Source: Pseudomonas sp. R4-35-07
GTDB taxonomy: Bacteria > Pseudomonadota > Gammaproteobacteria > Pseudomonadales > Pseudomonadaceae
Length of the DNA: 64,000 nucleotides
Direction of reading: 5' to 3'
NCBI RefSeq assembly: GCF_003852235.1
Contig: NZ_CP027732.1
Coordinates: 4,588,001 to 4,652,000 of the forward strand
Positions 36,163 through 39,340 of this stretch are shown piece by piece. The translations under genes were made by a program, and so were the position numbers. The stretch's first letter is position 1. Every line of letters begins with the position of its first letter. The notes under the pieces are model-generated. The model was not told the origin of the DNA, did not search any database, and saw nothing but the letters and a program-made list of their open reading frames with translations.

Positions 36163-37686
36163 ATGACCGTGATCAAGCAAGACGACCTGATTCAGAGCGT
36201 TGCCGACGCCCTGCAATTCATTTCCTACTACCACCCCGTTGATTTCATCCAGGCGATGCACGAGGCCTATCTGCGCGAAGAATCGCCGGCCGCCCGTGAC
36301 TCCATCGCCCAGATCCTGATCAACTCGCGCATGTGTGCCACCGGCCATCGGCCAATCTGCCAGGACACCGGTATCGTGACCGTGTTCGTGCGCGTGGGCA
36401 TGGATGTACGTTGGGATGGCGCCACCATGGGCCTGGACGACATGATCAACGAAGGCGTGCGTCGCGCCTACAACCTGCCGGAAAACGTCCTGCGCGCTTC
36501 CATCCTTGCCGACCCGGCAGGCGCGCGCAAGAACACCAAGGACAACACCCCGGCGGTGATCCACTACTCCATCGTCCCGGGTAACACCGTGGAAGTGGAC
36601 GTGGCCGCCAAGGGCGGTGGTTCCGAGAACAAGTCGAAAATGGCCATGCTCAACCCGTCCGACTCGATCGTCGACTGGGTGCTCAAGACCGTGCCGACCA
36701 TGGGCGCCGGCTGGTGCCCACCGGGCATGCTCGGCATCGGCATCGGCGGCACCGCCGAGAAAGCCGCGGTGATGGCCAAGGAAGTGTTGATGGAATCCAT
36801 CGACATCCACGAGCTGAAGAAGCGCGGCCCGCAGAACCGCATCGAAGAGATGCGCCTGGAGCTGTTCGAAAAGGTCAACCAACTGGGCATCGGCGCCCAG
36901 GGCCTGGGTGGCCTGACCACCGTGCTCGACGTGAAGATCATGGACTACCCGACCCACGCCGCGTCCCTGCCGGTGTGCATGATCCCCAACTGCGCCGCCA
37001 CCCGCCACGCGCACTTCGTGCTCGACGGTTCGGGCCCGGCGTCGCTGGAAGCGCCACCGCTGGACGCCTACCCGGAAATCGTCTGGGAAGCCGGCCCATC
37101 GGCCCGTCGCGTCAACCTCGATACCCTGACGCCCGAAGAAGTGCAAAGCTGGAAACCGGGCGAAACCGTGTTGCTCAACGGCAAGATGCTCACGGGTCGC
37201 GACGCGGCGCACAAGCGCATGGTCGAGATGCTGAACAAGGGCGAAGCCCTGCCGGTGGACCTCAAGGGCCGTTTCATCTACTACGTCGGCCCGGTTGATC
37301 CGGTGCGCGAAGAAGTGGTTGGCCCGGCGGGCCCGACCACCGCAACGCGGATGGACAAGTTCACCCGTCAGATCCTCGAGCAAACCGGCCTGCTGGGCAT
37401 GATCGGCAAATCCGAGCGCGGCCCGACCGCCATCGAAGCGATCAAGGACCACAAGGCCGTGTACCTGATGGCCGTGGGCGGCGCCGCTTACTTGGTGGCG
37501 CAGGCCATCAAGAAATCGCGCGTCGTCGCTTTCGCCGAACTGGGCATGGAAGCGATCTACGAGTTCGACGTGAAGGACATGCCGGTCACCGTTGCGGTGG
37601 ACAGCAAGGGCGAATCCGTACACATCACCGGTCCTGCGATCTGGCAGAAGAAGATCAGTGAAAGCCTGGCGGTGGAAGTCCAATAA
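36163..37686 (+). CDS. Fumarate hydratase class I (iron-sulfur)
   Basis: The enzyme interconverts fumarate and malate in the citric acid cycle using an oxygen-sensitive [4Fe-4S] cluster. The 507-residue product from ATG 36163 (AGAGGAG site 9 bases upstream) has the N-terminal alpha-domain with CATGHRPICQDTGIVTVF and NTKDNTPAVIHYS. A C-terminal beta-domain follows with YYVGPVDPVREEVVGPAGPTTATRMD. It is the single-chain FumA/FumB type. Cysteines fitting the cluster are seen in RPICQDTG and in the middle region (PNCAATRH). An IS110 element begins 14 bases after the stop. Confidence 0.95.
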   Translation: MTVIKQDDLIQSVADALQFISYYHPVDFIQAMHEAYLREESPAARDSIAQILINSRMCATGHRPICQDTGIVTVFVRVGMDVRWDGATMGLDDMINEGVRRAYNLPENVLRASILADPAGARKNTKDNTPAVIHYSIVPGNTVEVDVAAKGGGSENKSKMAMLNPSDSIVDWVLKTVPTMGAGWCPPGMLGIGIGGTAEKAAVMAKEVLMESIDIHELKKRGPQNRIEEMRLELFEKVNQLGIGAQGLGGLTTVLDVKIMDYPTHAASLPVCMIPNCAATRHAHFVLDGSGPASLEAPPLDAYPEIVWEAGPSARRVNLDTLTPEEVQSWKPGETVLLNGKMLTGRDAAHKRMVEMLNKGEALPVDLKGRFIYYVGPVDPVREEVVGPAGPTTATRMDKFTRQILEQTGLLGMIGKSERGPTAIEAIKDHKAVYLMAVGGAAYLVAQAIKKSRVVAFAELGMEAIYEFDVKDMPVTVAVDSKGESVHITGPAIWQKKISESLAVEVQ

Positions 37687-37739
37687 GTAAAGGTGGGAGG
37701 TCCCACTAAGTCTTCGACGTAGCGCTGTCGCGCATCAAA

Positions 37740-37930
37740 CTGGTTCATCGTAAGGTTGAAGAACGCGTGCGGGGCAAAGGCCGTAGCCAACACTGGTGTG
37801 ACAGCACCCGAGTGGGAGAGTGGCCTGCACGGTATCGGCGTGGAGTCATTGTCGGCACAGCAAAGCTGTGACCACGTATAAGAGAGTGAATCCGCTCGCC
37901 ACCGTGTACCCCGCCCGCGTCGTTCAATCC
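37740..37930 (+). ncRNA. Candidate bridge RNA in the IS110 left end
   Basis: IS110-group elements encode a structured bridge RNA between left end and transposase that pairs with target and donor DNA. In this 190-base stretch I see GTGGGAG at 37812-37818, identical to the left target flank at 37693-37699. ATAAGAG at 37878-37884 is identical to the element's right end at 39313-39319. Between them is a perfect 6-bp hairpin CACAGC-AAA-GCTGTG (37856-37870). The order target-guide then donor-guide agrees with IS621. The right-hand guides are not convincingly found, and the RNA ends are guesses. Confidence 0.45.
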
Positions 37931-37944
37931 TGCGAGGAATTGTC

Positions 37945-39276
37945 ATGACGCGCAAGAACCAAAAGCGTTTTGAGGTTATCCATCCGGACTGCGCTGCCGT
38001 TGATGTGGGCGGCAGTGAGCATTTGGCCGCTGTTGATCCGACCAAATGCGATGATCCGGTTAAGCGGTTTTCAACCTTCACCGATGATTTGCATGCCATG
38101 GCCGATTGGTTTGAATCCATGGGCGTCAAGGTGGTGGCGATGGAGGCGACTGGAGTTTATTGGATCCCGCTCTTTGAAATACTCGATAGACGAGGGTTTG
38201 AAGTCTATCTCGTGAATTCCCGTGCGACCCGGCAAATAACCGGTCGCAAGTCCGACGTACTGGATTGTCAGTGGATCCTTCAGCTCATGACGCACGGGCT
38301 GCTGCGAGGCGCTTTTCGGCCCTCGGACGATGTGTGTTCATTGCGCTCACTGGTCCGTCAGCGTGGCAATAAGGTCCGCGACCAAGCCAAGGCCCTCAAC
38401 CGGATGCAAAAGGCTTTGGTCCAGATGAACATCCAACTGGCTCAAGTCATCAGCAACATTGCCGGGGTGACAGGCATGAGTATTTTGCGGGCAATCGTTG
38501 ATGGAGAACGTGACCCCGAAGTACTTGCCATGCTCAGAGACAAGCGCGTCAAAGCCGACCAGGCCACTGTCGCCCGAAGTTTGCGGGGTAACTGGCGAGC
38601 TGAGCATTTGCATGCACTGAGTCAGGAACTGGCGGCTTACGACTTCCTTGAAAAACAGATTGGTGAATGCGACCAAGCCATCGCCTTTGCACTTGAACGG
38701 TTGCCTGTTCTTCAAGACGAGGTCGTGCTCCCAGCTAAAACGCTGCGCAACCCACACCGCTCCACTGAGCAGCAATTGACCCTGCATCGAGCGCTGAATA
38801 AGGTGATGGGGGTAGATTTAACCGCAATTCCTACTATCGGCATCGATACGGCGTTGGTTTTGGCTAGCGAATTGGGATCGGACTTGTCACGGTTTCCGAC
38901 CTCACAGCACTTCTGTTCCTGGCTGGGCCTCGCGCCGCCAACGCGAATTTCGGGAGGAAAACCCTTGCCCGGGAAATCTCTAAAAGTGATTAACCGAGCT
39001 GCACAGGCTTTAAAGCAAGCCGCTTCTATCGCACGCAATGATAAAAGCTTTATCGGAGCAAGCCATCGGGCGCGCCTAACCCGAATGGATACTTGCTGCG
39101 CAATCAAGGCGACAGCGCATCAACTGGCCCGGCTGATTTACGCGATGCTGACTAAAGGTCAACCGTACGTTGAAAAAGGAATCGAGGAGTTTGAAGAAAA
39201 AAGCCGTGACCGGCAGATGCGCGCCTTGGAGCGCAAGGCGCGTAAGTTAGGAATGCAGCTGGTTAAAGCGGCTTGA
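37945..39276 (+). CDS. IS110-family transposase (DEDD recombinase)
   Basis: The 443-residue product has the N-terminal RuvC-like DEDD domain with Asp20 (AVDVGGSEH), Glu67 (AMEATGVYW), Asp104 and Asp107 (RKSDVLDCQW). A long coiled-coil middle follows, then the C-terminal Tnp_20 domain with TIGIDTALVLASELG and the candidate catalytic Ser336 in TRISGGK. All catalytic positions are intact and the frame is open, so the element may be active. It is longer than IS621 transposase (about 326 residues). The codon use contains more A/T-ending codons than neighbouring genes, a sign of foreign origin. Confidence 0.93.
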   Translation: MTRKNQKRFEVIHPDCAAVDVGGSEHLAAVDPTKCDDPVKRFSTFTDDLHAMADWFESMGVKVVAMEATGVYWIPLFEILDRRGFEVYLVNSRATRQITGRKSDVLDCQWILQLMTHGLLRGAFRPSDDVCSLRSLVRQRGNKVRDQAKALNRMQKALVQMNIQLAQVISNIAGVTGMSILRAIVDGERDPEVLAMLRDKRVKADQATVARSLRGNWRAEHLHALSQELAAYDFLEKQIGECDQAIAFALERLPVLQDEVVLPAKTLRNPHRSTEQQLTLHRALNKVMGVDLTAIPTIGIDTALVLASELGSDLSRFPTSQHFCSWLGLAPPTRISGGKPLPGKSLKVINRAAQALKQAASIARNDKSFIGASHRARLTRMDTCCAIKATAHQLARLIYAMLTKGQPYVEKGIEEFEEKSRDRQMRALERKARKLGMQLVKAA

Positions 39277-39316
39277 AATTAAGAGCAAAAACAATGAGTT
39301 ATTTTTTGTTTGATAA

Positions 39317-39340
39317 GAGGGGGCCTTGCTCCCTCCCACA
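39317..39340. repeat. Right part of the REP split by the IS110 element
   Basis: The sequence from GAGGGGGCCTTGCTCC to CTCCCACA matches the REP family. Its left 7 bases are on the other side of the insertion (37693-37699). Confidence 0.75.

Follow-up and report, generated by a model that had tools for sequence, protein, structure and literature searches.

A complete insertion sequence of the IS110 family splits a REP palindrome in Pseudomonas sp. R4-35-07, and this intact-looking element very probably chooses its target by RNA. It lies in a 64,000-nucleotide stretch of contig NZ_CP027732.1 (assembly GCF_003852235.1, positions 4,588,001 to 4,652,000), here called the window. The ends, the core dinucleotide and the intact gene can be delimited, the left end carries a structured two-loop RNA whose fold is conserved, and covariation with target or donor DNA is seen for three of the four guides. 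Because the fold is conserved and the guides covary with the flanks, the element is read as working in the manner of bridge-RNA (seekRNA) elements. Bridge RNAs and the targeting of REPs have been described before; what is distinctive here is the guide order, together with the mini-elements described below. Coordinates are collected in Table 1.

Table 1. Positions in the window of the element, its RNA, its guides and its insertion site.
Feature	Position	Strand	Basis
Left target GTGGG + AG core, left half of split REP	37693..37699	+	same in three copies
Whole IS110 element	37700..39319	+	alignment of three copies whose surroundings differ
Left arm of subterminal inverted repeat, ATCAAAC	37734..37740	+	41 nt from core; complements GTTTGAT
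Predicted bridge RNA, two guide loops	37764..37917	+	covariance model R1; fold z -4.8
Right target guide GCCAA, loop 1 5' side	37786..37790	+	scan over relatives
Hairpin closing loop 1	37795..37808	+	paired in 12/12
Left target guide GTGGGAG including AG core, loop 1 3' side	37812..37818	+	guide-flank covariation
Candidate right donor guide GGCGTGGAGTC	37837..37847	+	discontinuous fit, by eye
Hairpin closing loop 2, CACAGC-AAA-GCTGTG	37856..37870	+	three double-changed pairs in 12 sequences (helix 6)
Left donor guide ATAAGAG including AG core, loop 2 3' side	37878..37884	+	equals right terminus
Transposase/recombinase, 443 aa, intact	37945..39276	+	PF01548 + PF02371
Right arm of subterminal inverted repeat, GTTTGAT	39308..39314	+	arms compared in 50 elements
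Left donor = element right terminus, ATAAG + AG core	39313..39319	+	three-copy comparison, donor-guide test
Right target and right half of split REP	39320..39340	+	flank read in the three copies

The element, its insertion site and its transposase

The element is 1620 bp long with one AG core counted. Three copies are present in the 5.84-Mb single-contig genome, the two further copies being 99% identical in DNA to the one in the window, and all three are inserted at the same base of a REP. Their left ends are identical, and identity among the copies begins past GTGGGAG and stops at GATAAGAG. The three sites read GTGGGAG, the element, then GGGGCC, AGGGC or GGGGC. Because one copy has an A following the right-hand AG, the right limit of the core is set after AG, which we take as the core dinucleotide. 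With the core counted once, the right flank in the window is GGGGCCTTGC and the joined site is GTGGGAG+GGGGCCTTGC; the joined sites of the other copies are GTGGGAG+AGGGCTTGC and GTGGGAG+GGGGCTTGC. A preliminary description of this DNA held that joining the flanks restores a normal REP. The REP is indeed split, but its restoration is not exact, as the joined site in the window has one additional C. The same description suggested that the element, if its reading was real, targets a repeat family abundant in the host. In this genome a strict REP pattern occurs 949 times (482 + 467), and a reversed control pattern has 0 occurrences.

A fumarase gene and a gene for a sensor-kinase-like protein flank the window element, and no more than a few bases (37684-37692) lie between the stop codon of the former and the split REP. 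Twelve related loci were fetched, and none of the nine printed, the window's own locus aside, is an exact empty site. REP-like palindromes are present in the fumarase-REP gap of some of these nine loci, and most of them have a terminator-like hairpin and a T run there. A search of a plasmid collection returned 408 records, every one below 60% identity.

Both PF01548 (DEDD RuvC-like) and PF02371 (C-terminal) exceed their cut-offs in the transposase. The catalytic residues D20, E67, D104 and D107 are unchanged across 13 relatives, and the G--P----SG motif appears as GLAPPTRISGG at 328; domains, DEDD residues and motif all place the protein in the IS110 family. The nearest transposase in a named genome, from Pseudomonas libanensis, is 96% identical. 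A profile of 13 transposases has a sole match in the PDB, the IS621 transposase (E 4.2e-13), and a PDB search with the single transposase sequence gave no match.

A long, RNA-bearing non-coding left end (245 nt) and a short right end (43 nt) give the element the layout of the IS110 group, in which the inverted repeat is short (2-3 bp) or absent; here it is subterminal and spans 7 bp. Among 50 elements the repeat is 7 bp in 35 and 4-6 bp in the remaining 15, and the arms include AAGAAAC/GTTTCTT (20), GAGAAAC/GTTTCTC (13) and CAAAC/GTTTG (13). The distance from core to AAAC is 39-44 nt in relatives, most commonly 41.

The predicted RNA and its guides

The left end is more stably folded than its shuffles (z -4.8). 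In an alignment of 12 RNAs, including that of the window, a six-helix structure named by hand has 97.9% of its cells paired and contains eight pairs with both sides changed. Its covariation score is 0.143, against 0.075 +- 0.010 for shuffles and at most 0.063 when slid; none of 500 shuffles reaches the paired fraction, the double-changed pairs or the covariation score. The number of pair types is not above that of shuffles (307/500), and the hairpin closing loop 1 is without covariation because it is invariant. Lack of a conserved fold, which the preliminary description had named as counter-evidence, is rejected by this alignment.

On its own genome the covariance model finds the three copies and nothing else. 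Within the genus, 13 of 398 genomes match it. A further 73 loci, which include known relatives, yield 70 matches at E values of 1 or less, the strongest of the distant ones coming from an Acidobacteria bin (L060, E 2e-11). A group of Pseudomonas elements with transposases 42-43% identical (L089-L097) has weak RNA scores (E 4e-4 to 0.4). A search of Rfam gave four matches, all well under gathering scores.

The RNA is most likely sense to the transposase, judging from base-pair types. That the working RNA is instead the opposite strand, with the guides read reversed, is very unlikely. ISPpu9 has such an antisense RNA, Asr9, described as about 180 nt long and 4.6 times as abundant as Ssr9 (PMC8450116). 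G-U cells, however, outnumber A-C cells on the sense strand (155 vs 39) in alignment A4, an excess that leans toward sense because A4 had been built to fit the model; helix 2, where a pattern was used for the reading, gives 6 G-U against 1 A-C. The sense-strand guides also end in the core at their 3' ends, as derived for IS621, and antisense guides would not. A candidate sense promoter motif, TANNNT, is present in the expected stretch of 27% of 66 sequences, against 11% when shuffled, a difference that does not establish a promoter.

Guides were compared with flanks in 86 distinct RNAs parsed with one pattern, itself written after inspection of many of these sequences; the left-end anchor motifs were likewise picked by eye from the parsed sequences. 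L089-L097 were unparsed and are absent from every guide test. Boundaries in both the left-target and left-donor tests were fixed independently of the guides, the left boundary being the conserved AAAC anchor plus the AG nearest to 41 nt away. From the 86 RNAs, 73 have a left guide and a left boundary, and 68 of these are unique. The 13 rows dropped (L007, one L014 copy, L015, L016, L018, L031, L055, L059, L067, L080, L119, L132 and L135) reflect contig ends, misparses or no AG in range.

The left target guide matches the flank at 4.53 of 7 positions in the 68 unique elements, against 2.57 +- 0.13 when permuted (20,000 permutations, maximum 3.12; p 5e-5). The five core-adjacent positions each reach z 7.0-9.5 and the two outer positions give no signal, so the left guide is read as five bases plus AG. 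Scanned along the RNA, the left-target signal peaks at the left guide (z 13.8) and is absent from the 5' side of loop 1. Taken separately, the Pseudomonas-type elements (n=14, p 1.5e-4) and the Burkholderiales-type elements (n=45, p 5e-5) both show the association, and so does a set reduced to a single element for each guide (n=36, p 5e-5); in the attC-like group with guides ending TTAG it is weak (n=9, p 0.03). Several Burkholderiales-type elements (L011-L018, L032, L043) have guides ending GTTAG at sites that follow GTTAG, which we take to resemble integron attC ends.

The left donor guide was compared with the right terminus in 36 unique elements, drawn from 50 with an end motif among the 61 that have an ORF of 390 aa or longer. 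The two agree exactly in 32 of the 36 (nine guides), and at the five variable positions 4.78 match, against 3.21 +- 0.18 when permuted.

In the window, the two matches and the perfect hairpin between them lie where the preliminary description had placed them, with the target guide ahead of the donor guide as in IS621. Because those 7-mers were chosen post hoc, and a short match within 245 bases is not rare, the matches might have been chance. This explanation now has next to no probability: the fold determines where the guides lie, these guides covary with the flanks, the left-target permutation test refutes it, and both guides lie far beyond permutation across relatives. The covariation of guide and flank that the preliminary description proposed to look for in homologous insertions is thus found over 68 elements, which also rejects the refuting case of like left ends at unrelated target sites.

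The right-hand guides, absent from the preliminary description, divide into one now placed and one not. A right target guide is found 5' of the left guide, so that loop 1 carries its right guide 5' and its left guide 3'. In loop 1 it is the 5' side that complements the right flank (z 6.1 in 58 unique elements), with a family-wise p of 2.5e-4 that corrects for scanned windows and not for the left anchor, which was chosen after looking (a right-anchored reading gave z 3.3, then a left-anchored one z 5.8). Elsewhere in the scanned RNA the signal does not exceed z 3.7, a weak one on the 3' side of loop 1 (family-wise p 0.017). L027 and L083 were left out of the right-target rows, as were L020 and L080 in the 58-element scan; the right flank of L007 is misassigned and counts against the right-target reading.

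It is rather unlikely that the left side of the target alone is read and that the right guide is vestigial. A single Cupriavidus genome has three copies (L038, L039, L040) with a common left flank, CTTTGGAG, and unrelated right flanks, and the right guide fits at a mean of just 2.1 of 5 bases against 1.4 (60 unique elements), with 3 of 5 fitting in the window. The right-target signal nevertheless falls on one antidiagonal and persists when each loop sequence is represented by a single element (n=39, five draws, p 2e-4 each), which argues for a right guide that is read. The right donor guide was not located by a scan in two groups of relatives, a scan that is weak because this element end is too conserved.

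Relatives, retargeting and elements without a transposase

In three relatives (L085, L088, L098), whose transposases are about 80% alike in the regions compared, the guide is GAGGGAG and the insertion follows GCGAGGGAG in a different palindrome. Compared with the window element, they show what appears to be natural retargeting between two REP classes through a one-base guide change. L010, which is outside REPs, carries the guide CACAGAG and is sited after CCACAGAG.

These relatives also bear on whether the protein alone recognises the REP, with the RNA serving as a leader of the mRNA or as a regulator, and with the matches being target sequence that was copied or left as a relic. The left-end and ssr9 RNAs of ISPpu9 are indeed described as regulators of transposase expression (PMC8450116). 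The flanks, however, follow single guide positions where the protein is alike (80% identity between the window and L085), and the donor guides match the element's own end rather than the target, so a protein-only account is extremely improbable.

Three elements of 361, 347 and 346 bp (the second element of L008, L121 and L122) have no transposase; their two ends and the two left guides are retained. L121 and L122 resemble each other and lie at unrelated sites that both end in ATGAGAG, which equals their guide. The mini-element in L008 (L008:2881-3241, 361 bp) directly abuts an autonomous relative at that relative's right end, which is identical to the mini-element's guide ATAGGAG.

Six of the 13 RNA-bearing genomes in the 398-genome draw have an RNA with no transposase match at E 1e-30, one of the six matches being at a contig end (L124). 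In G081 no helper transposase was found at E 1e-30, and present mobility there is disfavoured because no helper is found at that threshold. G039 has six RNA matches (L119, L128, L132, L134, L135, L136) and no transposase match. Five of these six RNAs are full-length, with guides GAGAGGGAG wherever a guide is present, and they sit inside a larger rearranged repeat of more than 1 kb with a second degenerate RNA-like piece.

The left flank encodes the C-terminus of another IS110 transposase in 5 of 69 cases. Four of these (L008, L024, L042, L079) have a guide that agrees with the IS110 end at 6 or 7 of 7 bases, against 3 of 7 in the fifth, a tandem in L014. Two tandem RNA copies are present in each of L014, L027 and L072, and in L014 and L027 a right end adjoins a left end. 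Because the L014 guide misfits the junction, the L014 and L027 tandems are read as having arisen otherwise than by guided insertion.

Proposed mechanism and known systems

By analogy with IS621 and the seekRNA elements, the RNA would be made and bound by the recombinase, and the element would pass through a circle. The left end would encode an RNA with two guide loops. Loop 1 would pair with the REP, its 3' side GTGGGAG reading as left target plus AG core and its 5' side GCCAA pairing with the opposite strand on the right. The partner of loop 2 would be the junction at which the two ends meet in the excised circle, with the 3' side of the loop, ATAAGAG, standing for the right terminus plus AG and its 5' side, the fourth guide, presumably pairing with the left terminus. 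Holding both, the DEDD recombinase would carry out strand exchange at AG, by chemistry like that of the known systems, placing the element in a REP in one orientation.

IS621, as far as its published accounts describe it, shares with the window element the left-end RNA, a target loop ahead of the donor loop, guides ending in the core dinucleotide, a DEDD recombinase, REP as target and a short right end (PMC11208160, PMC11208158). It differs in its solved chain of 328 aa, its CT core (AG as read here) and its inverted repeat of 2-3 bp, against mostly 5-7 bp in the window lineage. The IS621 target loop is described with its left guide 5' and its right guide 3' (PMC11208160), whereas the window element has its right target guide 5'. 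Because both target guides end at the core 3', the local geometry would be that of IS621 with the element reversed.

According to the published description of seekRNA elements, the bottom-strand match comes first in ISEc21, of the IS110 type, and the top-strand match first in IS1111 elements (PMC11187229). The window element has the guide order opposite to that of ISEc21 and resembles IS1111 elements in its target-loop order, the top-strand match lying 5' of the bottom-strand match, and in its subterminal inverted repeat. It differs from them in its RNA, upstream rather than downstream of the gene, and in its transposase of 443 aa rather than 330-350 aa (PMC11187229). As predicted from the sequence, an IS1111-like order in loop 1 is combined with an IS110 layout, and in the donor loop one guide is located. 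IS4321/IS5075 of the IS1111 family are described as likewise targeting the end of another mobile element; the second element of L008, L024, L042 and L079 differ in targeting the end of another IS110 element. A search by title and the start of abstracts, in a collection with few subscription papers and no preprints, turned up no publication that deals with bridge-RNA elements lacking a transposase, nor one that describes this guide order.

ISPpu9 and ISPpu10 of P. putida were compared by published description rather than by sequence. Both are described as inserting in REPs with a 2-base repeat, AG in ISPpu9 (PMC1525189), and ISPpu10 is among six drawn bridge RNAs (PMC11208160). For ISPpu9, the account gives a 41-nt conserved left box, a 14-nt right box, an abundant antisense RNA at the left end, tnp-less ssr9 units joined by AG to the right end, and orphan ssr9 copies (PMC8450116). 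In that account ssr9 units are read as regulators, in contrast to guide-RNA elements (PMC8450116); by analogy, they look as the mini-elements described here would.

These observations may be joined in one reading, which we consider evenly balanced between right and wrong: guide RNA and recombinase may part, with transposase-less satellites of about 350 bp choosing targets and borrowing the recombinase of a relative. As further parts of that reading, some guides may aim at IS110 ends, rebuilding a right-end/left-end junction; the ssr9 units of ISPpu9 would be satellites of this kind; and the lineage may be intermediate, with an IS110 layout and an IS1111-like guide order.

A match noticed by eye has become a mapped guide system in a long-transposase IS110 lineage without a close solved relative, and its guide order misfits the printed contrast of opposite orders in IS110 and IS1111 types. 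If the mini-elements do move in trans, they would be natural short donors with a separate recombinase, and a new reading would be suggested for the Ssr9 RNA of P. putida.
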